Positions 34,802 to 44,472 of a stretch of 64,000 bases of DNA are shown one piece after another. The stretch covers positions 62,001 to 126,000 of the forward strand of contig CACBAM010000006.1 of NCBI GenBank assembly GCA_902537215.1. Reading direction: 5' to 3'. The DNA comes from an uncultured Alphaproteobacteria bacterium (GTDB lineage: Bacteria; Pseudomonadota; Alphaproteobacteria; Rhodobacterales; Rhodobacteraceae). Numbering within the stretch: the stretch's first letter is position 1; each line of letters begins with the position of its first letter. The position numbers were made by a program, and so were the translations under genes. The notes under the pieces are model-generated. The model saw only the letters and a program-made list of their open reading frames with translations, ran no database searches and had not been told where the DNA came from.

Positions 34802-35629
34802 TCATCCTAACTCTAAAATCTCACGTGCTTTTTTCCAAGAAGCAATAGGCCTATTGTACTGTTCACAAATTTCTTTCGCAATCTTTACTAAGCTAGCGTT
34901 TGAAGGTGCTAATGTCTCTTTATCAATTCTGATATTATCTTCCAACCCGGTTCTAACGTGTCCCCCCAATTTTATGCACCATTCATTCAAAATTCTCTGA
35001 TTTCTTCCAATACCTGCACCACACCATAAAGCTTTTGGCAAAAGTCGATTAACAGTCTTTATATAATATTCAAAAACATCAAAATCTGCCGGCATAGCAT
35101 TTTTTACCCCCATAACAAATTGAATATACAAATTTCCTTGTAATTTATTCTCTTTAGCTAAATTAGCTGCTTGATGAATATGAGATAAATCAAATACCTC
35201 TATTTCAGGTTTAACTGAATTTTTAATCATTTCTTCCGCGAGCCAATCAACAAGATCTGGAGGGTTCTCATAAACTCTTGTGGGAAAATTGTTTGAGCCA
35301 ACAGTTAATGAAGCCATATCTGGTCTTAGACTCAGCATTTTTCCTCGGTCAAAACCATGGCCTGAGCGACCACCTGTAGAAAGTTGGATGATCATACCAG
35401 GGCAATATTTTTCGATACCCTCTTTCAATCTTCTATATTTATCAGGGTCTATGCTAGGTGTCCCATCATCATTACGAACATGACAATGGGCTATACTAGC
35501 GCCTAACTCATAGCATTCCTGAGTGCTTTCTATCTGTTCTGCTATGCTTATTGGGACTGCAGGGTTATCTTCTTTAGTAGGGACAGAGCCTGTAATTGCG
35601 ACACATATGATACATGGATCAATCATCAT
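34802..35629 (-). CDS. BKACE-family beta-keto acid cleavage enzyme (3-keto-5-aminohexanoate cleavage-like)
   Basis: Zinc TIM-barrel enzyme condensing a beta-keto acid with acetyl-CoA to give acetoacetate or a related product and a new CoA ester. The metal-binding HxH is seen in SIAHCHVRNDDG, and the C-terminal region VRTGLEDNI carries the family glutamate. The 275-residue length is typical. The exact keto acid cannot be read from the sequence; the family acts on many substrates. It is divergent (78-base gap) from the catabolic island at 35.7 kb, and its acetoacetate product could feed the acetoacetyl-CoA synthetase at the start of the window. Confidence 0.88.
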   Translation of the reverse strand: MMIDPCIICVAITGSVPTKEDNPAVPISIAEQIESTQECYELGASIAHCHVRNDDGTPSIDPDKYRRLKEGIEKYCPGMIIQLSTGGRSGHGFDRGKMLSLRPDMASLTVGSNNFPTRVYENPPDLVDWLAEEMIKNSVKPEIEVFDLSHIHQAANLAKENKLQGNLYIQFVMGVKNAMPADFDVFEYYIKTVNRLLPKALWCGAGIGRNQRILNEWCIKLGGHVRTGLEDNIRIDKETLAPSNASLVKIAKEICEQYNRPIASWKKAREILELG

Positions 35630-35707
35630 CGTAATATAGGTTGAAATTAGGTAAATTAAAAATAAAATATCGGTGGATTATGTGTTCTTATCTTATTAAG
35701 GTTAATA

Positions 35708-36544
35708 ATGTATTGCGCTGCTTTTAACTCTAATGCCTACCTTCACCATATCGCTTTGAACACTACCCGTCCTTTGGAATTGGCTAAGTTTTATGAAAAG
35801 GCGTTATCTATAGAAAGGAAACCAATAAAAGGTGGTTGGGTTTTATCGGGAGCTAGAAGGAAAGTTCTTATATTGAGCAATAAACAAAATTGCCTGGGAT
35901 TTGCAAGTTTTGCCTGTCAAGATAGCCACTCTTTAAAAGTCTTAAAAAGAAATTTCGTGGGAAAGGGCATAGATACATTTCAAGATGATAATTCTCTATT
36001 TATTCATGATAATTTCTATATTTTTGACTGCGACGGCAATAAAATTTATTTTGGACTTTCCAAAAACAAAAAGGATCAAATTTCGAACCTTTATGCTCCT
36101 CTACAGCATATCACTTTCACCTCAGAAAACTTAGACAATTTTGTTGATTTTTATGTTAACAAACTTGGATTTAAAATTTCAGATAAAGTTATTGATAAAC
36201 GGGGTCAGCTTACAACTTGCTTTATGAGATCAAACCAAGAGCATCACACAGTTGCATGTTTTTTAAGCAACAAATCAGGTTTAGATCATTATAGTTTTGA
36301 AGCAGGAACATGGGAATGGATTAAAAATTGGTGTGATCATTTTTCCAAGCAAAATATTCAATTGATTTGGGGGCCAGGTCGTCATGGCCCCGGGAATAAT
36401 CTTTTTGCATTTATAGAAGATCTTGATGGGAATAAAATTGAGATTTCTGCTGAGTTAGAAATTGTTCATGATAGGCAAAGTAAAAAATGGCCTCATGAAC
36501 CAAAAACGTTAAATTTATGGGGTAATGCAATAATGCGCTCTTAA
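35708..36544 (+). CDS. Two-domain VOC protein, probable type I extradiol dioxygenase
   Basis: A 278-residue vicinal-oxygen-chelate protein with two betaalphabetabetabeta modules (about residues 10-118 and 130-250), the layout of catechol 2,3-dioxygenase. The iron ligands expected in the second module are all present: His134 (QHITF), His194 (DHYSF) and Glu245 (NKIEIS). His226 sits in the GRHGPGN loop. It would cleave a catechol-type ring next to the hydroxyls, opening the meta pathway. It is the first gene of a forward run ending at dctM and beyond. A single-function glyoxalase-like role is less likely given the complete ligand set. Confidence 0.75.
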   Translation: MYCAAFNSNAYLHHIALNTTRPLELAKFYEKALSIERKPIKGGWVLSGARRKVLILSNKQNCLGFASFACQDSHSLKVLKRNFVGKGIDTFQDDNSLFIHDNFYIFDCDGNKIYFGLSKNKKDQISNLYAPLQHITFTSENLDNFVDFYVNKLGFKISDKVIDKRGQLTTCFMRSNQEHHTVACFLSNKSGLDHYSFEAGTWEWIKNWCDHFSKQNIQLIWGPGRHGPGNNLFAFIEDLDGNKIEISAELEIVHDRQSKKWPHEPKTLNLWGNAIMRS

Positions 36545-36550
36545 AGGAGG
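36545..36550 (+). promoter_or_regulatory. Consensus Shine-Dalgarno for the FAH-family gene
   Basis: The sequence AGGAGG lies six bases before the ATG at 36557 and just after the VOC gene stop. It is the full consensus, stronger than most sites in this window, which suggests high independent translation of the hydrolase. Confidence 0.7.
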
Positions 36551-36556
36551 AAATTT

Positions 36557-37426
36557 ATGAAATATGCAAGTTTTGTTAGACTAGGTGAAACGTGTTTTGG
36601 AGTTTTCCATCAGGGTAAAATTTTTGACCTGACCTATCAATTAGCTGGGGGTTCTTCAAGCTTGAAGGAAGCTATTCATTTTGGAAGTATTCCAGATAAT
36701 ATACAAGAATTAGAGAGCTATTTAGCTAATGTCACAGCCTATGAACCTGCCGATATAACATTTCTACCTGTTATACCAGATCCAGGAAAAATTTTTTGTA
36801 TAGGTCTGAATTATGAAAAGCATAGGAAAGAAACAGAAAGACCAGAGGTTCAATATCCCACTATTTTTACTCGATTTGCAGAAAGCCAAGTTGCACATCG
36901 AGAAGCGGTAATCAAGCCTATCTTGTCTGATAGAGTGGACTTTGAAGGTGAGTTGGCTGTAGTTATTGGAAAAGGTGGTAAAAATATCTCTTCAGAAGAA
37001 GCTTTGCAAAGTATTGCAGGATATACTTGTTATAACGATGTATCTATTAGGGATTACCAGAGACATACCAGTCAGTTCGTTCCAGGGAAAAACTTCTCAA
37101 AAACAGGCGGTTGCGGACCATTTTTAAAATTAGCATCGTCGATAGAAAATTACCAAAGCTTAACCATTAAAACAATATTGAATGGCGAGGTTATGCAAGA
37201 AGCAAAGCTCGATCAATTGATTTTCAAAATACCTGAGATAATCTCCTATATCTCTTCTTTTACTCCTTTAATCGCAGGAGACATTATTGTCACTGGAACG
37301 CCTGGTGGAGTTGGGGATAGGCGAGATCCACCTTTATACATGAAAACTGGTGACATTGTAGAAGTTGAAATTTCGGAAGTTGGTAAGCTAGTTAACCCGG
37401 TGCTCGACGAAAATATTATCCTTTAA
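36557..37426 (+). CDS. Fumarylacetoacetate hydrolase-family protein
   Basis: A 289-residue FAH-fold enzyme (2-oxo acid hydratase, isomerase or acylpyruvase type) acting on ring-cleavage products. The metal ligands are seen in DFEGELAVVIGKGG and in YNDVSIRDYQ. The later segments TGGCGP and TGTPGGVG are family signatures. It directly follows a probable extradiol dioxygenase and precedes an aromatic hydroxylase, so it fits a step after ring opening. Which of the FAH-family reactions it does cannot be told from sequence. Confidence 0.85.
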   Translation: MKYASFVRLGETCFGVFHQGKIFDLTYQLAGGSSSLKEAIHFGSIPDNIQELESYLANVTAYEPADITFLPVIPDPGKIFCIGLNYEKHRKETERPEVQYPTIFTRFAESQVAHREAVIKPILSDRVDFEGELAVVIGKGGKNISSEEALQSIAGYTCYNDVSIRDYQRHTSQFVPGKNFSKTGGCGPFLKLASSIENYQSLTIKTILNGEVMQEAKLDQLIFKIPEIISYISSFTPLIAGDIIVTGTPGGVGDRRDPPLYMKTGDIVEVEISEVGKLVNPVLDENIIL

Positions 37427-37443
37427 ATGCTTCTCAAATTATT

Positions 37444-39036
37444 GTGACGAAAAATTTCGATGTAATTATTGTTGGAATGGGTCCTTCCGGTCTCGTTTTA
37501 GCTGGCTTGCTTGCCAGTTATGGCATTGAGGTTGGTATTTTTGAAAAGAATAAAAGTACTGTCAAAGAACCACGAGCGGTTTCTATAGATGATGAGTCAC
37601 TCCGAATTCTTCAAAGCTTTTCCTTGCATAAAGCTGTGTTAAAGAATGTTTCTCAAAATTATGGGTCTCATTACTACGATGCCAAAGGTAAGCTATTTCT
37701 GAAAGTTGAACCGAATTCATGTGAAAATGGCTTTTTTAAACGAAATGCTTTTGATCAACCAACTTTTGAAAGCACATTGAGGAAACATCTGGAGGGTAAA
37801 AAAAACATCAACATCAATTTTTCACATACACTAATTTCTATAAAAAACGAGACTAACCGTGTTATCGCGAATTTTAAGGATAGTAAAGGGATAAAAAAAA
37901 GCATTTTAGGACGGTATCTCGTAGGTTGTGATGGTGGACAATCAACTGTTAGAGACCTTATTGGCGTGGTAATGAGAGGTAGCACTTTTAATCAAAAATG
38001 GTTAGTCGTTGATATATATAATACAAAAAATTTTTTTAGGCATACGCAAGTTTATTGTAACCCCAATCGTCCATCCATAACTTTACCTGGTCCCAATGAT
38101 ATAAGGAGATATGAGTTTAAACTAAATGATGGAGAGGGATCTAAAAAATTAAGTGAAGATTTTACAAGAAAGCTTATAGCAAGTGTCGGAGTAGATGGAC
38201 AAGCAAAGATTAGAAGATCACAAGTATATCAATTTCATGCATTGATCGGTTCGGATTGGAAAAAAAAATCTGTATTTATTGCAGGTGATGCAGCGCATTT
38301 GTCTCCGCCGTTTGCTGGGCAGGGAATGAATAGCGGAATTAGAGATGTAGGGAACTTGGGTTGGAAATTAGCGTTAGCTGTTAAAATGCCACAATCAAGT
38401 AATATACTGGAAACCTATTTTCTGGAAAGAAAAGAACATTGCTGGGCCCTAATTAATTTGGCGATACGAATGGGTAAAATAATGATGCCAAAAAACAGCT
38501 TGTATTCTTTTTTTAATGCATCTTTTTTTAGGCTAATCAAGTTAAATAAAACACTGCTTAGTTATATGTCTCAAATGAAATATCGGCCCAAACCTAAATT
38601 AAAAACGGGACTTATTTTTTTTCATGGGAAAGAGACAAGGGATGATAAGAAATTAATTGGAACGCTATTTCCACAACCCTTAGTGCAAGATAAGGCTGGA
38701 AATTTGTCTAATTTAGATGAGGTTTTGGGTAACAAGTTTTCTTTAGTTTGTTATATAAAAAACCATGAAACTTACATTAGTCTGGAGAAACATCTCAATA
38801 ATTTTTCAAAAACTTGTAAGGTTGTTATTGTATTGAACCAATCATGCATGATTTTCCCGAGTAGGCATGAGGTTGTTCGAGATTTTAATAACCTTTTAGA
38901 AAAAATGGAGACAAGGGTGCCAGAGAATAGGGTTCTTTTACTCCGACCTGATAAATTAGTATCCGCAATCTATAAAAAACATAATCTTCATTATTTATCA
39001 AATTTATTAAATAATAACGAGATATTTGGTTTTTAG
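37444..39036 (+). CDS. FAD-dependent aromatic hydroxylase, MhpA-like (first copy)
   Basis: Group A flavoprotein monooxygenase of the PHBH/MhpA type that inserts oxygen into a phenolic ring using NAD(P)H. Motifs: FAD Rossmann GMGPSGLVLAGLLA near residue 12, DG motif VGCDGGQSTVRDLIG near 160, and GD motif FIAGDAAHLSPPFAGQG near 280. A C-terminal thioredoxin-like portion fills out the 530 residues. The GTG start at 37444 lies 17 bases after the preceding stop. It belongs to the catabolic run of VOC, FAH and TRAP genes. The ring substrate is unknown. Confidence 0.87.
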   Translation: MTKNFDVIIVGMGPSGLVLAGLLASYGIEVGIFEKNKSTVKEPRAVSIDDESLRILQSFSLHKAVLKNVSQNYGSHYYDAKGKLFLKVEPNSCENGFFKRNAFDQPTFESTLRKHLEGKKNININFSHTLISIKNETNRVIANFKDSKGIKKSILGRYLVGCDGGQSTVRDLIGVVMRGSTFNQKWLVVDIYNTKNFFRHTQVYCNPNRPSITLPGPNDIRRYEFKLNDGEGSKKLSEDFTRKLIASVGVDGQAKIRRSQVYQFHALIGSDWKKKSVFIAGDAAHLSPPFAGQGMNSGIRDVGNLGWKLALAVKMPQSSNILETYFLERKEHCWALINLAIRMGKIMMPKNSLYSFFNASFFRLIKLNKTLLSYMSQMKYRPKPKLKTGLIFFHGKETRDDKKLIGTLFPQPLVQDKAGNLSNLDEVLGNKFSLVCYIKNHETYISLEKHLNNFSKTCKVVIVLNQSCMIFPSRHEVVRDFNNLLEKMETRVPENRVLLLRPDKLVSAIYKKHNLHYLSNLLNNNEIFGF

Positions 39037-39040
39037 AGTG

Positions 39041-39053
39041 TATAGTTACTATA
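39041..39053. promoter_or_regulatory. 13-bp perfect palindrome upstream of dctP, operator-like
   Basis: TATAGT, one central T, then ACTATA: a perfect 6-1-6 inverted repeat in the 53-base gap between the hydroxylase and dctP, 36 bases before the dctP start. The size and place fit a repressor or activator site, but AT-rich DNA produces such palindromes by chance and no regulator gene is adjacent. Confidence 0.25.
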
Positions 39054-39075
39054 AATTTAAAAATTATTAACATCT

Positions 39076-39085
39076 GGGGAGGAAG
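39076..39085 (+). promoter_or_regulatory. Strong Shine-Dalgarno for dctP
   Basis: GGGGAGGAAG lies five bases upstream of the dctP ATG. It is the richest purine match in the operon and fits high output of the periplasmic binding protein relative to the permeases. Confidence 0.6.
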
Positions 39086-39089
39086 TTTA

Positions 39090-40118
39090 ATGAAATTATT
39101 TTTAAGATTTTTAGTCGCGTCTGCTTCTGTACTGTTTCTTTCAATATCTGCATACGCAGGAGAAGTGGTACTAAAGTTCCATTCATTTCCGCCGATGCCT
39201 GCAAATTCTAACGCAAAGTTTGTTAAGCCGTGGAGTGAAAAGGTATTAGCGGAGTCTAATGGAGAAATAAAAGTTGAGATATATCCTGCAATGCAGCTTG
39301 GTGGGAAACCACCTCAACTTGTTGATCAAGTGAGAGATGGTGTAGTAGATATCGTTTGGACTGTTGCCGGTTATACACCGGGAAGATTCCCACATTTGGA
39401 AGCGTTTGAATTACCATTTATGCCTGCGTCTGCTGAGGCGACATCTCAAGCACTACAAGAATACGTAGACACGGTAGCTGCCTCCGATCTTAAAGATTAT
39501 AAGGTTTTAGCCGTATTTTGTCATGCTCCAGGAAAAATTCATACTAAAGAAAAAGTTATTAAGTCTGCAGCTGATTTAAATGGTATGAAGATGCGTGGTC
39601 CTACAAGACTGATAACCAAAATGTTAGAAGGCTTAGGGGCAACGCCGGTAGGAATGCCTGTCCCTGCGGTGGCTGGAGCACTATCAAAGGGTGTGATCGA
39701 TGGCATGGTTGTGCCTTGGGAAATTATGCCGTCTTTTAAACTTCATGAGCTTACAAAAGCACATACCACAGTTTCGGGATCCAGAGGTTTATACACAACT
39801 CCGTTTTTGTTCTTGATGAATAAAGCGAAATACGAGTCTTTAAGTGATGAGCATAAAAAGGTTATTGATAATAATGCTGGTCTTGCCCTGGCAAAACTTG
39901 CTGGACAGCTTTGGGACGGTTTCGAAGTTCCAGCTAGGAAGTTAGCATTAGATGCTGGTGGAACAATACACTCTCTATCAGGAGGTCCTCTTGCAGAAAT
40001 GAAGGCGGCTGGTGAAGGCCTTGAGAAGGATTGGATAAAATCAGCTAATGAACGCGGCCTAGATGGTGCAATGCTTGTTAAAACTGCGAAAGACTTAATT
40101 TCAAAATATGACAAGTAA
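39090..40118 (+). CDS. TRAP transporter substrate-binding protein, DctP family
   Basis: Periplasmic solute receptor of a TRAP importer. A signal peptide (residues 1-23, cleavage probably after AYA) precedes a DctP-fold body with the segment GMKMRGPTR carrying the conserved ligand-binding arginine and later IDGMVVPWE. The 342-residue length is normal. It sits in a catabolic island with aromatic hydroxylases and a ring-cleavage candidate, so an aromatic or ring-derived carboxylate is the likely ligand; this is inference. The stop overlaps dctQ by 11 bases and is soon followed by a terminator-like hairpin. Confidence 0.93.
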   Translation: MKLFLRFLVASASVLFLSISAYAGEVVLKFHSFPPMPANSNAKFVKPWSEKVLAESNGEIKVEIYPAMQLGGKPPQLVDQVRDGVVDIVWTVAGYTPGRFPHLEAFELPFMPASAEATSQALQEYVDTVAASDLKDYKVLAVFCHAPGKIHTKEKVIKSAADLNGMKMRGPTRLITKMLEGLGATPVGMPVPAVAGALSKGVIDGMVVPWEIMPSFKLHELTKAHTTVSGSRGLYTTPFLFLMNKAKYESLSDEHKKVIDNNAGLALAKLAGQLWDGFEVPARKLALDAGGTIHSLSGGPLAEMKAAGEGLEKDWIKSANERGLDGAMLVKTAKDLISKYDK

Positions 40119-40641
40119 AAATACCTTGTTAGATCTTGAAGAAACAGAGCGCCCAAACGATATTTTTGGGCGCTTTTTACTTAAGATTGTAACTTATCTA
40201 GCGATTTGTGGAGGTATAGTACTTGTTGTAATAGTACTTATAAATTTTACTTCTATCGCAGGTAGAACAATGTTTGGCAAGCCTCTTACAGGAGACTTTG
40301 AACTTGTTGAAATGGGATGTGCAGTTGCAATGTTTTCATTTTTACCACTTTGTCAATTTAAGAATGGGAACGTCATTGTAGATTTCTTTACAATAAACCT
40401 CTCTAACAAAATTAAAAACTGCTTAAATGGTCTTGGAGCTTTCTTATTTTTTTTAGTAGCCTCTTTTTTTACGTGGAGGATGGTTTATGGAGCCTTAGAC
40501 ATGTTCAAGTACAATGAACAAACGATGTTGCTTCAAATTCCCGTCTGGATTCCATTTGTTCCAGCGGTTATTTCTTTTGGTGTTCTATCGATAACCTGCC
40601 TTTATACATCAATAATATTTTTCAAATCGGCTTTTAAATAG
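40108..40641 (+). CDS. TRAP transporter small permease subunit, DctQ family
   Basis: A 177-residue inner-membrane protein with four hydrophobic helices (about residues 25-48, 62-80, 97-118, 143-165). The family-typical GRTMFGKPLTGDFELVE segment lies between the first two. It pairs with DctM for sodium-driven uptake. The start at ATG 40108 lies inside dctP and gives a 20-residue hydrophilic leader; within that leader the DNA forms an intrinsic-terminator-like hairpin, unusual for a coding region. Confidence 0.9.
   Translation: MTSKNTLLDLEETERPNDIFGRFLLKIVTYLAICGGIVLVVIVLINFTSIAGRTMFGKPLTGDFELVEMGCAVAMFSFLPLCQFKNGNVIVDFFTINLSNKIKNCLNGLGAFLFFLVASFFTWRMVYGALDMFKYNEQTMLLQIPVWIPFVPAVISFGVLSITCLYTSIIFFKSAFK
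40148..40178 (+). terminator. Intrinsic-terminator-like hairpin inside the 5' end of dctQ
   Basis: A perfect 10-bp stem (left arm 40148-40157, right arm 40165-40174, AGCGCCCAAA and its complement) with a 7-base loop, followed by a run of five T ending at 40178. It sits 29 bases after the dctP stop, in dctQ codons about 14-24. Seven of its stem pairs are consecutive with six G:C among them, far above the local AT-rich background. It could stop most transcripts after dctP and so keep the binding protein in excess of the permeases. Confidence 0.6.
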
Positions 40642-40653
40642 AAAATATTTATC

Positions 40654-41973
40654 ATGGATAGACTCTACCTTGGCATAATAGCTTTCCCAATTCTTTTTTC
40701 TTTATTGGCTGTGAGGGTTCCCATTGGCTTAGCTATGTTGGTCGTTGGCTGTTCAGGAACAATTTTTATCGCTGGTTGGTTGCCTATTATGTCCCAAGTA
40801 AAGACAAGTGCATGGCATCTTTTTTCTAATTATTCATTTACTGTTATTCCTTTATTTTTACTAATGGGAAACTTTGCATCAAAGGCGGGAATGAGTGAAT
40901 CTCTATTTCGGTTTGCTGGTGCTTGCCTTGGACACAGACGAGGTGGGGTGGCTATGGCAGCAGTCGGTGCATGTGCTGGTTTTGGTGCTATATGTGGTTC
41001 ATCTCTTGCTACAGCCGCTACCATGGGTCGTGTGGCTCTTCCCGAGCTACGCAGAATGGGTTATTCTGGTTCTTTAAGCACTGGGGCTTTGGCCGCTGGT
41101 GGAACGTTAGGTATTTTGATACCACCATCCGTTATATTGATAATCTATTCAATTTTAACCGAACAAAATATTGCAAAAATGTTTTTAGCAGCTTTTGTAC
41201 CTGGGATTTTAGCTGCAATTGGATATCTGATAGCGATAGCTATTTTCGTAAGGATAAAACCAGATTCGGGTCCACCCACAAGCTATGTGGGATGGAGGCA
41301 AAGACTTAATTTATTTGGGCAAGTGTGGCAAATACTTGTTATATTTTTTCTTGTAATTGGAGGTATTTATCTTGGGTGGTTTACACCAACCGAGGGTGCT
41401 TCAATAGGTGCAGCCGGTACAGGTATTATGGCACTCTTTACAAAAGGCTTCAATTTTAGTGATTTAATTGATGTTATTAAGGATACAGCTGTCACGTCCG
41501 CTATGATTTTTTTAGTATTATTAGGGGCTGAGTTTTTTAATTCTTTTATTGCACTTACGCAAATAACTAATGAATTGGCAACATTTGTTATTAGCAATGA
41601 GCTCTCTCCATATCTAGTCGTATTTTGTATATTAGTCCTATACATTCTTTTAGGTTGCCTTATGGATAGTTTGGCCATGATATTACTAACTATACCCGTA
41701 TTTTTTCCTATTATCATTGAATTAGATTTTGGTATGAGTATTGAAGAGGTTGCAATCTGGTTTGGTATCCTTACTCTTATCGTTGTTGAAGTGGGGCTAA
41801 TAACTCCACCAGTGGGCTTGAATGTTTTTATAATTAATAAAATGGCAAAAAATGTTCCAATTTCAGACACCTTTATTGGAGTTTTGCCATTTTTAATAAG
41901 TGACCTTATTAGGGTCGGCATACTGTTTATCTTTCCTGGTATAAGCTTGTTTTTAATTCGGCTTTTTGGGTAA
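40654..41973 (+). CDS. TRAP transporter large permease subunit, DctM family
   Basis: A 439-residue inner-membrane protein with about 12 hydrophobic helices that forms the transport pathway of the TRAP importer. Typical segments include ICGSSLATAATMG, LAAGGTLGILIPPSV and FTPTEGASIGAAG, the repeat motifs that bind sodium and substrate, and LITPPVGLNVF near the C-terminus. It is 12 bases after dctQ and 20 bases before a VOC gene, in the same forward run. Confidence 0.94.
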   Translation: MDRLYLGIIAFPILFSLLAVRVPIGLAMLVVGCSGTIFIAGWLPIMSQVKTSAWHLFSNYSFTVIPLFLLMGNFASKAGMSESLFRFAGACLGHRRGGVAMAAVGACAGFGAICGSSLATAATMGRVALPELRRMGYSGSLSTGALAAGGTLGILIPPSVILIIYSILTEQNIAKMFLAAFVPGILAAIGYLIAIAIFVRIKPDSGPPTSYVGWRQRLNLFGQVWQILVIFFLVIGGIYLGWFTPTEGASIGAAGTGIMALFTKGFNFSDLIDVIKDTAVTSAMIFLVLLGAEFFNSFIALTQITNELATFVISNELSPYLVVFCILVLYILLGCLMDSLAMILLTIPVFFPIIIELDFGMSIEEVAIWFGILTLIVVEVGLITPPVGLNVFIINKMAKNVPISDTFIGVLPFLISDLIRVGILFIFPGISLFLIRLFG

Positions 41974-41993
41974 AGTAATTTGGAGGTTTTGTA

Positions 41994-42542
41994 ATGAAAA
42001 ATGAAGAAATAGTGGATTCATTGAAGGTCATAAAGTGTCAACATGTTTCTCTAGAAGTTAGTAATGTTGATGTTTCTTTAAAGTTTTATAGAAATTTTCT
42101 GGGATTAAAGCTCTCAGAAAGGCATTATGCCAATGAAAATCCTGCCATACCTTTCGAAATGGCGTTTATGAGACTTGGTAAGCAACATCATGATCTTGTG
42201 CTAACGCATGATCCAAAGAGAGACTACCCAGAAAAAATATTTAATTCTGGCCCTGCTGGAATTCATCATTATGCATTTGAATGTCCAAATAAAAAAAGTT
42301 TCGATATGTATTTAGAAAGGGCAAAGGAAATGTCATTAGAAATTGTAAGGGGACCCGTTCTTCATAGTGCGTATCAATCTAAAGGTGATGGAACGTGGGG
42401 AGAAAATTGGAGTTTTTACGTTTTAGATCCAGATAAGCACCGAATAGAAATTTTTTGTGAAATGGCGGAGATAGACAATGCTGGTTGCTATATAATGGAA
42501 AATGGTAAAAAGGTACCTGATAAAAAGGTAGAAGAAATTTAA
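41994..42542 (+). CDS. Single-domain VOC protein with complete metal-ligand set
   Basis: A 182-residue vicinal-oxygen-chelate protein. Candidate metal ligands are His17 (CQHVSLEV), His92 (HHYAFE) and Glu152 (HRIEIF), in the order used by extradiol dioxygenases and glyoxalase-type isomerases. It is preceded by a strong GGAGG site. Its neighbour is the second MhpA-like hydroxylase (9-base gap), so a ring-cleaving dioxygenase or an isomerase of a cleavage product are the two leading options. Confidence 0.72.
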   Translation: MKNEEIVDSLKVIKCQHVSLEVSNVDVSLKFYRNFLGLKLSERHYANENPAIPFEMAFMRLGKQHHDLVLTHDPKRDYPEKIFNSGPAGIHHYAFECPNKKSFDMYLERAKEMSLEIVRGPVLHSAYQSKGDGTWGENWSFYVLDPDKHRIEIFCEMAEIDNAGCYIMENGKKVPDKKVEEI

Positions 42543-42551
42543 TTAAAATAC

Positions 42552-44021
42552 ATGATGAAAAAGAATTTTGATTGCATCGTTATTGGTTACGGTCCAGTTG
42601 GCGCTTTACTCTCAATATTTCTATCAAAGTTAGGATTGAGTGTTGCGGTTATAGATAAAAATTTAGATGTTTATCCATTACCACGAGCAATACATTTTGA
42701 CGAAGAAGTAATGCGTATTTTCCAAATGGTTAATCTTAGCGAGCAGATTTCTAATATCTCTCGAATTGGTACAAAGGGGATGCATTTTGTTGATAAAGAA
42801 GACAATATTTTAATGGAAAGAAAAGGATCAAACTCCATAGGGGAGTATGGTTGGCAAAAAAGCTGGTATTTTCATCAACCTCAACTTGAAAGACTCTTGA
42901 GGAGTAACGCAGAGAAGGAGAAAAACTTCGTTAGCTTTTTGGGGTATGAAACCCAAAAAATAAACCAAGATAGTGATTTAGTAACTGTTACATCATATAG
43001 CAAGAGTTTAAAAAAAGAGCTTGTGCTACAAAGCAAATACCTAGTTGGTTGCGATGGAGCAAACTCAAATACGAGCGACTTTATAGGGCAAGGAGTAAAA
43101 GATTATGGATTAAAAGAAAAGTTTTTAGTCCTCGATCTAATAGTCGATAATCGATACCAAAACATTAAAAACTTGCCAGATTACACTGTTCAGCACTGTG
43201 ATAAGGTTAGGCCAGTCACGCGTTGTTTCATAAATAAAAAAAGAAGAAGGTGGGAAGTCAAAATATTGCCTAGCGATAATGAAGAAGAGTTCTTAAAAAG
43301 TAAAACTATATGGAAATTCCTAAGCAAATGGATAGACAAGAAAAGTGCAAAAATCGAGCGTAGCCAATTATATACTTTTAGATCAATACTTAAGAAGAAA
43401 TGGTTTAAAAATAGGGTAATTTTAGCAGGAGACAGCGCACACCTTTCTCCTCCCTTTCTTGGGCAAGGTATGTGTGCTGGTATTCGTGACGTTGCAGCCT
43501 TAGCATGGCGTTTAAAAGGATATGCCAGCAATAATCTGTCGGCTGATGATTTAGTAAACTATCAAGCAGAAAGGTTTCCGCATGTATCTGCTTTTATTAA
43601 GTTGGCTGCTGAAGTGGGCAAGATAATGTCCAACCCAGGCTTGCTTATGAAGTCTGAAAATTCACAAAGCATGCGATTATTTGATTTCCCGAAACCGAGA
43701 TTAAAAACTGGGTTTTTTTATAAATGTTCTTTATCTGGGACATTATTTCCACAATTTACTGAGGATAGTAAAAAAAGCGATGATACCCTTGGGTATAAAT
43801 TTATTTTACTAGTTTTAGAAAATAATGTGTGTTCCAAAGTTAATATGGATCCAAACATATTAACTAAAAAAGTCGCTAGAGGGTCTTTAAGAAATTGGAT
43901 TATTAAAAGCAAAAAAGAAGCGGTGATTATTCGACCAGATAAATATATTTTTGGCAGCGCATCCTCAAAAAAAGAGGTAAGTTCACTACTCAACTGTTTT
44001 TGTGATATGTACCGAGCTTAA
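42552..44021 (+). CDS. FAD-dependent aromatic hydroxylase, MhpA-like (second copy)
   Basis: A second group A flavoprotein hydroxylase of 489 residues. Motifs: FAD Rossmann GYGPVGALLSIFLSKLG, an arginine-bearing PLPRAIHFDEEVMR near residue 45, DG motif VGCDGANSNTSDFIG and GD motif LAGDSAHLSPPFLGQG. It is clearly diverged from the hydroxylase at 37.4 kb, so it probably acts on a different ring intermediate. It ends the forward catabolic run; the next gene is convergent. The start may be either of two adjacent ATG codons (42552 or 42555). Confidence 0.86.
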   Translation: MMKKNFDCIVIGYGPVGALLSIFLSKLGLSVAVIDKNLDVYPLPRAIHFDEEVMRIFQMVNLSEQISNISRIGTKGMHFVDKEDNILMERKGSNSIGEYGWQKSWYFHQPQLERLLRSNAEKEKNFVSFLGYETQKINQDSDLVTVTSYSKSLKKELVLQSKYLVGCDGANSNTSDFIGQGVKDYGLKEKFLVLDLIVDNRYQNIKNLPDYTVQHCDKVRPVTRCFINKKRRRWEVKILPSDNEEEFLKSKTIWKFLSKWIDKKSAKIERSQLYTFRSILKKKWFKNRVILAGDSAHLSPPFLGQGMCAGIRDVAALAWRLKGYASNNLSADDLVNYQAERFPHVSAFIKLAAEVGKIMSNPGLLMKSENSQSMRLFDFPKPRLKTGFFYKCSLSGTLFPQFTEDSKKSDDTLGYKFILLVLENNVCSKVNMDPNILTKKVARGSLRNWIIKSKKEAVIIRPDKYIFGSASSKKEVSSLLNCFCDMYRA

Positions 44022-44055
44022 TATTGCTTTAGTATAAACATGTAAAGTAATGATT

Positions 44056-44472
44056 TTATTGATATTTTACGACTTTATTTCCTTTTGAAAGCCACTCTTT
44101 TATTCCTTTAGTATTATAGATATTGGGAAAATCATTTGTTTTTTCTAATGCTTTCGCAATTGCAGTAGTTCTTCTGCCTGTTCTACAAAAAAGAATTATT
44201 CCCTTTTCAGAGTTTGTAATATTTTTAACTTTGTTAATAAATCCTTTGAAATCGTAAGTTCCATCTTTCTCGAAAAAAGTATGGTGATAGCTGTTTTCAA
44301 TTACTCCAGTTGAAACCCATTCGTCTTTACGTCTTACATCGATAAGCGGAATGCCTAGCGACATCAGTCTCTTAATTTCATCATTTCCTATATTTTTTGT
44401 CTCAGCATAACTGTTACCGGTTAAGATGAAGATAAATAAAAGTATTAAGGTTATGATGCGTTTAAGTTTCAT
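44056..44472 (-). CDS. Periplasmic rhodanese-like protein
   Basis: A 138-residue single rhodanese domain with an N-terminal signal peptide (about residues 1-23, ending NSYA), so it is exported. The active-site loop is FCRTGRRT with the persulfide-forming cysteine. The upstream DVRRKDEW motif is also typical. The role of exported single-domain rhodaneses is uncertain (sulfur transfer or redox). It is a lone reverse gene between two forward operons; its 3' end faces the second hydroxylase. Confidence 0.88.
   Translation of the reverse strand: MKLKRIITLILLFIFILTGNSYAETKNIGNDEIKRLMSLGIPLIDVRRKDEWVSTGVIENSYHHTFFEKDGTYDFKGFINKVKNITNSEKGIILFCRTGRRTTAIAKALEKTNDFPNIYNTKGIKEWLSKGNKVVKYQ

Follow-up and report, generated by a model that had tools for sequence, protein, structure and literature searches.

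Within a 64,000-nucleotide stretch of an uncultured member of the Rhodobacteraceae (Alphaproteobacteria; GenBank assembly GCA_902537215.1, contig CACBAM010000006.1, positions 62,001 to 126,000; hereafter the window), eight co-directional genes on the + strand at positions 35708-44021 encode a complete TRAP importer (DctP, DctQ, DctM), two MhpA-like flavin hydroxylases (HYD1, HYD2), two VOC proteins (VOC1, VOC2) and an FAH-fold hydrolase (FAH). We consider it probable that these genes form a single operon by which a hydroxylated aromatic acid is taken up and degraded aerobically. The binding protein of the importer is virtually identical to a crystallised protein from an ocean metagenome, for which the operon provides a genomic home and a candidate pathway, and from the family membership of the encoded proteins we infer import, ring hydroxylation, extradiol ring cleavage and C-C bond hydrolysis.

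A first-pass annotation made from the letters alone had placed eight genes here, and all eight open reading frames were found, with families as it had described them. In the order VOC1, FAH, HYD1, DctP, DctQ, DctM, VOC2, HYD2, their Pfam matches, all above the curated cut-offs, are Glyoxalase, FAA_hydrolase, FAD_binding_3, DctP, DctQ, DctM, Glyoxalase and FAD_binding_3. With successive intergenic distances of 12, 17, 53, -11, 12, 20 and 9 bp, the genes are spaced like one operon, and no regulator lies among them, as the first-pass annotation had also said. The individual features are:

35708-36544, + strand: VOC1, two-domain protein resembling type I extradiol dioxygenases (Pfam match, ligand residues)
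36557-37426, + strand: FAH, putative FAH-fold C-C hydrolase of the HpaG/acylpyruvase superfamily (PF01557, 202.7 bits; relatives in the PDB)
37444-39036, + strand: HYD1, MhpA-like FAD hydroxylase with a GTG start (PF01494; GMGPSG and GDAAH motifs)
39090-40118, + strand: DctP, TarP-type TRAP binding protein for aromatic acids (near-identical PDB entries)
40108-40641, + strand: DctQ, small TRAP membrane subunit (PF04290, 69.1 bits)
40654-41973, + strand: DctM, large TRAP membrane subunit (PF06808, 294.1 bits; TIGR00786, 280.7 bits, cut-off 268.45)
41994-42542, + strand: VOC2, single-domain protein resembling extradiol dioxygenases (PF00903, 56 bits; ligand residues)
42552-44021, + strand: HYD2, MhpA-like FAD hydroxylase (PRK06183.1-3 subfamily, 422.8 bits, cut-off 390)

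The importer and its ligand class

Since DctP is nearly identical to proteins of known structure, the ligand class of the importer rests on solved structures. In a phmmer search, residues 23-342 of DctP matched PDB entry 5i5p with 710 bits, and only two differences were found within residues 25-342. A structural model of DctP was built from 16 aligned rows (predicted local distance difference test score, pLDDT, 78) and replaced a single-sequence fold with a pLDDT of 36. Foldseek searches with this model gave 98-99% identity over 318-319 columns to the entries 5i5p, 5iga, 5i7i and 5izz, and separate structural alignments to the same four entries gave 94-96%. According to their titles, these entries represent a marine metagenome TRAP solute binding protein specific for aromatic acid ligands (Sorcerer II). 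The ligands themselves are cut from the entry titles and were presumably 3-hydroxybenzoate and m-hydroxyphenylacetate. Binding of aromatic acids is thus experimentally supported for a protein virtually identical to DctP and, by proxy, for DctP itself, which sustains the earlier proposal of an importer for an aromatic acid. No paper tying the four entries to a pathway was found in our literature search.

The next matches of the DctP model were 5im2 (50% identity), TarP_Csal with caffeate, ferulate and coumarate (44%) and TarP_Sse (43%). All three subunits, DctP, DctQ and DctM, are present together as in the TarPQM systems of R. palustris, Sagittula and Chromohalobacter, but in contrast to TarPQM the transporter sits inside a hydroxylase and extradiol dioxygenase operon. 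Arg169 of DctP is invariant in all 16 aligned rows. For TarP, the available part of the published description proposes Arg168 as the carboxylate ligand (PMC3610893); the likeness to Arg169 is one of residue number only, from a comparison without residue-by-residue alignment.

Putative catabolic enzymes of the operon

HYD2 exceeds the cut-off of its MhpA-type NCBIfam subfamily, and HYD1 scores 523.9 bits against the related model PRK06183.1-5, below the cut-off of 546. In a tree of 81 rows, the two proteins fall on the two sides of a branch with a support of 100 and therefore look like old paralogues rather than products of a recent duplication, in line with the first-pass description of two diverged hydroxylases. 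The tree was computed with a quick method, several long branches were flagged, the same-genus records L067-L076 were left out and the labels correspond to the best BLAST matches.

The full 2-His-1-Glu ligand set that had been attributed to both VOC proteins was confirmed by alignments. In VOC1, the metal ligands H134, H194 and E245 are invariant in 10 rows (VOC1 and nine relatives), and H180 and the active-site residue H226 are kept as well. For most of its length, the ten-row profile could be aligned to homoprotocatechuate 2,3-dioxygenase, with the ligands matched. VOC2 consists of a single domain of 182 residues, in which H17, H92 and E152 are invariant in a 7-row alignment; it also has H65/H66, H124 and Y142. 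H124 aligns with the second-shell histidine of characterised enzymes only if an insert is allowed, and the matches of VOC2 to solved structures are weak and partial. FAH is placed in the HpaG/acylpyruvase superfamily, and its 165.7 bits against the NCBIfam HpaG-C model, below the cut-off of 276.4, do not class it as an HpaG isomerase/decarboxylase.

In the route that we propose, DctPQM would import a hydroxylated aromatic acid, HYD1 and HYD2 would add hydroxyl groups to the ring as expected for MhpA-like enzymes, and VOC1 and VOC2, to judge from their metal ligands, would open the ring by Fe(II)-dependent extradiol cleavage. FAH may then hydrolyse the fission product at a C-C bond, releasing pyruvate and a second acid.

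Conservation in the genus and the family

The first-pass annotation had regarded the locus as an accessory island. Within the genus this is not supported by a survey of genomes or by base composition, and an accessory or recently acquired island was rejected at this level. VOC1 was found in 14 of 22 same-genus genomes, including that of the window, two of the 14 being partial matches at a contig end. The eight genomes without VOC1 are 58-77% complete; in seven of them the gene next to BKACE, the divergent neighbour of the operon described below, is missing too (thymidine-kinase-like by reading); the eighth, G081, has this gene on a contig that stops 9 bases beyond it. The lack of VOC1 in these eight genomes therefore fits missing sequence, not loss. 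Among the 12 same-genus records L066-L077, 10 reach HYD2 with the full gene order and two are cut further down by contig ends; of the 10, L075 and L076 have the start of VOC1 cut by a contig end. The guanine plus cytosine fraction of the operon (0.362) is at the upper end of, but no outlier among, same-length sliding windows within the 64,000 nucleotides (mean 0.350, standard deviation 0.007, maximum 0.365).

Median pairwise ratios of non-synonymous to synonymous substitution (dN/dS) of the eight genes and BKACE range from 0.028 to 0.144 (10-13 sequences per gene, sequences below 95% of full length, such as BKACE of L068, being left out), which shows purifying selection on all nine in the genus. 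The operon has been retained in a marine genome of 2.1 Mb and seemingly belongs to the genus in general. At the family level the HYD1-type hydroxylase is rare: with HYD1 as query (E <= 1e-40), 8 of 80 family genomes (one per genus) gave a match, the genome of the window included, and in the nine stretches covering the other seven genomes VOC1-FAH-HYD1 occurred in only one, G033.

Two separable modules in related loci

To survey gene order, the best 80 of 537 related stretches from a scan with the VOC1 alignment were kept; 12 belong to the genus and 68 do not. Flanks exceeding 3 kb on the upstream side and 4 kb on the downstream side were available in 56 of the 68, referred to as flanked loci, and the other 12 were dropped from the counts. 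The identical order VOC1-FAH-HYD1-DctPQM-VOC2-HYD2 occurs in four of the 68 (L086, L087, L116, L140); together with the 10 genus records this bears out the expectation of a conserved neighbourhood.

The flanked loci frequently contain FAH (38), HYD1 (43) and an IclR-type cluster (33), a label resting on one scanned member, in L136, which matched only the IclR helix-turn-helix domain PF09339. VOC1-FAH-HYD1 is a recurrent cassette across Alphaproteobacteria, with varied transporters and often an IclR-type regulator; on a plasmid of Phaeobacter gallaeciensis, for example, the three genes are grouped next to genes for TAXI binding proteins and IclR. Exposing this cassette in soil, plant-associated and marine Alphaproteobacteria makes its chemistry directly testable. 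In three Agrobacterium vitis loci (L108, L113, L115), VOC1-FAH-HYD1 lies near CoA-transferase, FMN-dependent dehydrogenase and aldehyde dehydrogenase clusters, with Pfam labels from L115 only. In three FAH-less loci (L081, L091, L095), an IclR-type gene separates VOC1 from HYD1, and the opposite strand carries an alpha/beta hydrolase gene downstream. Such a hydrolase was present in 5 of 18 FAH-less flanked loci versus none of the 38 with FAH; since all five come from one related group, the idea that it replaces FAH there is possible but weak.

The importer travels with HYD2 and a VOC partner. An orthologous DctP is present in 16 of the 56 flanked loci, each of which combines HYD2 with VOC2 (4) or with the BphC-type protein V11 (12). 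Of the 40 flanked loci without orthologous DctP, 37 also lack HYD2; the exceptions are L078, L123 and L131. As the contig of L131 starts within a piece of DctP and no more than 919 bases precede HYD2 on that of L123, L078 is the only clear exception. Among the 12 dropped loci, L099 agrees with this pattern, L129 has DctP without HYD2 on a short contig, and L098 and L128 have HYD2 matches at contig starts without DctP. V11, a VOC protein of 323 residues, keeps the extradiol residues H145, H187/H188, H202, H234, Y243 and E253 in all 17 members and is matched best, though under the cut-off, by the NCBIfam model for biphenyl-2,3-diol dioxygenase. In Roseibium album (L102), VOC1-FAH-HYD1-DctPQM occurs along with HYD2-V11. 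In the SAR116-type loci L122, L138, L143 and L099, DctPQM is divergent from V11-HYD2-VOC1; L122 and L138 have an IclR-type gene separating HYD2 from VOC1, and FAH follows VOC1 except in L143.

A hydroxylase and a VOC protein are found on both sides of the importer, as the first-pass annotation had noted, but the two sets are not equivalent halves. HYD2 and VOC2 would form a module tied to the importer, and HYD1, VOC1 and FAH a second, separable cassette.

The divergent BKACE gene

Upstream of the operon lies a further gene that was absent from the first-pass gene set:

34802-35629, - strand: BKACE of the 3-oxoadipate:acetyl-CoA acetyltransferase type, divergent from the operon (NF053568 equivalog, PF05853)
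35630-35707, no strand: divergent intergenic region of 78 bp between BKACE and VOC1 (coordinates)

BKACE scores 462.7 bits against NF053568 (cut-off 350). The 78-bp region may hold a shared promoter; as promoter-like matches between 34700 and 44600 were no commoner than in shuffled sequences (29 versus 35.6, standard deviation 6.5), we make no promoter claim. The earlier suggestion that the lower pathway differs or lies elsewhere is refined by these data: a possible lower-pathway gene adjoins the locus, and other aromatic routes are encoded elsewhere in the genome. With less confidence than for the preceding steps, we suggest that BKACE might consume a beta-keto acid arising from the route of the operon.

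Either this route supplies BKACE with a beta-keto acid, or the gene is left over from a protocatechuate 3,4-cleavage (pca) cluster like that of L116. The second possibility, in which BKACE would now act on another beta-keto acid, is compatible with the rest of our interpretation, and we give it a somewhat less than even chance. Directly ahead of the operon, L116 has PcaC-, PcaH-, PcaG-, BKACE-, PcaB- and PobA-like genes in this order; PcaH and PcaG pass equivalog cut-offs and PobA a subfamily cut-off, and PcaC and PcaB pass none. PcaH-type clusters are present in 7 of the 56 flanked loci, and PcaB-type clusters likewise in 7. The genome of the window has protocatechuate 4,5-cleavage genes instead. 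Against a mere leftover speak the position of BKACE beside the operon in 10 of the 12 same-genus records, the other two beginning inside VOC1, its median dN/dS of 0.063, and the presence of two other BKACE genes in the genome that are 28-30% identical to it. In L068 (position 8245 onward) the BKACE frame comprises 225 instead of about 275 amino acids, possibly a truncation or an assembly error. An intradiol (pca) route feeding BKACE was rejected for this genome, which is 91.9% complete and contains no match to the intradiol dioxygenase family PF00775.

One pathway or two

Each module occurs without the hydroxylase of the other, which makes two related substrates or entry points likelier for them than a single, strictly linear path. 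In its most explicit form, HYD2-VOC2 would act on one hydroxylated aromatic acid and HYD1-VOC1-FAH on another, both supplied by one importer. This narrower version of the proposed function comes close to an even chance in our estimation. It agrees with the separability of the modules across loci, with the supported branch that separates the two hydroxylases, and with genome G039, where HYD2 lies beside a V11-like open reading frame (recognised by its N-terminal letters) and no VOC1 match was found in that 19-kb stretch. It also agrees with the description of R. palustris TarP as a binder of several aromatic acids (PMC3610893). Less easily reconciled with parallel pathways are the lack of a separate hydrolase for the HYD2-VOC2 branch and the fact that the importer follows HYD2, not HYD1.

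A linear pathway with two hydroxylations, likewise a narrower version of the proposed function, appears unlikely to us. Here, HYD2 and then HYD1 would generate a trihydroxyphenyl acid (e.g. 2,3,5-trihydroxy), VOC1 would open the ring next to the side chain, giving a 2,4,6-trioxo acid, and FAH would release pyruvate and HOOC-CH2-CO-X, the beta-keto acid used by BKACE (3-oxoadipate from a propionate side chain, 3-oxoglutarate from an acetate side chain). Such a path would explain why one locus combines two hydroxylases with FAH and a BKACE of the 3-oxoadipate type, and it is consistent with the CoA-transferase-type gene near VOC1-FAH-HYD1 in the three A. vitis loci and with a genome offering no intradiol dioxygenase match to feed BKACE. 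Its chemistry is speculative and drawn from reasoning, and VOC2 with its own extradiol residues would be superfluous. Moreover, 19 of the 28 flanked loci with FAH and HYD1 lack HYD2, and SAR116-type genomes combine HYD2 and VOC1 without HYD1. When ten genomes (nine named SAR116, one only Alphaproteobacteria) were searched with HYD1, nine gave a single match, namely HYD2 beside VOC1, and the tenth (L085) gave none; these genomes are small (1.2-2.2 Mb, completeness not given). The presence of HYD2 only in the nine genomes argues against a strictly linear HYD2-HYD1-VOC1 path.

Going further, oceanic Alphaproteobacteria could possess an undescribed route, in which an imported meta-hydroxylated aromatic acid undergoes successive flavin-dependent hydroxylations, a VOC protein without the usual tyrosine opens the ring, FAH yields pyruvate and a beta-keto acid, and BKACE channels the latter into central metabolism without a CoA ligase. 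We regard this as improbable in its full extent.

Several observations weigh against our broader interpretation of one operon for uptake and degradation of an aromatic acid. Phe235 of VOC1 occupies the position of a tyrosine in homoprotocatechuate dioxygenase, and this column contains 4 Phe and 6 Met in the 10 rows. Neither VOC protein reaches a curated NCBIfam dioxygenase cut-off (HpaD, catechol 2,3-dioxygenase, BphC); the HpaD model gave 76.3 for VOC1 and 40 for VOC2 at a cut-off of 321.4. BKACE may be only a remnant of the pca cluster seen in relatives. The surveyed loci are related, many being from SAR116, and were all found through VOC1, so that the co-occurrence counts are not independent and are inflated; a Fisher test, which presupposes independence of the loci, was not relied on. 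L085 contains V11, VOC1 and FAH with a more distant TRAP system (DctP 35%) and without a HYD1 or HYD2 match, and the SAR116-type genomes with only HYD2 show that VOC1 does not need HYD1. In seven SAR116-type loci (L122, L130, L132, L133, L136, L138, L145), a single hydroxylase, HYD2, occurs with V11, VOC1 and FAH, a pairing of two VOC proteins that the proposed route does not account for.

Other aromatic routes in the genome

Common aromatic intermediates are served elsewhere in the genome, and the operon therefore probably handles another acid or other entry compounds. Contig C10 (L154:7854-13408) carries a protocatechuate 4,5-cleavage cluster of the LigA/LigB/LigK/LigU type, with scores above the cut-offs for LigA, the class III beta subunit, LigK and the 4-oxalomesaconate tautomerase; it also includes dehydrogenase-, PIG-L- and lactonase-like genes (labels by reading) and TRAP genes of its own. 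On contig C2 (L167:5255-10416), homogentisate dioxygenase and fumarylacetoacetase are followed by a hydrolase-like open reading frame and an FAD-dependent oxidoreductase of the PRK08132 subfamily. PobA is encoded on contig C16 (L166:7703-8884; TIGR02360, 577.6 bits, cut-off 538.7), and no pca genes were noticed among the open reading frames listed around it. With the PobA, Lig and homogentisate genes on other contigs, 4-hydroxybenzoate, protocatechuate and homogentisate are less likely as the own substrates of the operon, which may possibly act as an extra importer for one of them. The genome contains no match to IclR_C (PF01614); the helix-turn-helix domain PF09339, found in the scanned regulator of L136, was not searched for.

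Relation to known pathways

The locus is well supported as a locus and is a chemically undefined variant of aromatic uptake and extradiol catabolism. Its MhpA-like flavin hydroxylases and extradiol logic recall the mhp pathway of 3-hydroxyphenylpropionate degradation, which comprises a LigB-type dioxygenase, an alpha/beta hydrolase, a hydratase, an aldolase and an aldehyde dehydrogenase. The operon, in contrast, has VOC-type putative dioxygenases and FAH, and no local hydratase, aldolase or aldehyde dehydrogenase. MhpB, MhpC, MhpD, MhpF and MhpE gave no match among the 10 proteins scanned at 34802-44472 (open reading frames further out were read by eye only), in keeping with the first-pass remark that the classical aldolase and aldehyde dehydrogenase are missing, and the sole match to the LigB family PF02900 in the genome is the class III beta subunit beside LigA. 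The classical mhp pathway was rejected, as none of these five was matched among the scanned proteins. In the dnt pathway of 2,4-dinitrotoluene degraders, an FAD hydroxylase, VOC-type cleavage of a trihydroxylated ring and an FAH-family hydrolase lead to pyruvate. By description, without sequence comparison, the enzyme types resemble those of the operon, whereas the substrate is different.

No description of this operon was found in our literature search, which left most subscription journals outside its reach, so that one may already be in print. A paper on 4-hydroxybenzoate in R. nubinhibens concerns the beta-ketoadipate pathway in its available part, and a paper on riboflavin catabolism, likewise in its available part, assigns no role to its putative FAH gene, lumV.

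The bbd genes on plasmid pBAM2 of Aminobacter sp. MSH1 come close in another respect, as homologues of VOC1 (44% identity) and FAH (54%) stand side by side there, accompanied by a TRAP transporter and an IclR gene. The available part of the source states that pBAM2 enzymes take 2,6-dichlorobenzoate to central metabolism (PMC8460812). In contrast to our operon, pBAM2 has a Rieske oxygenase and glutathione transferases, not MhpA-like hydroxylases, and its DctP is 28% identical over 267 residues. Neither a Rieske oxygenase nor a glutathione transferase was found among the 10 scanned proteins, so that the locus is not a bbd-type cluster despite the VOC-FAH pair. Given the pca, pob and bbd neighbours in relatives, benzoate-type acids are a likely substrate class.

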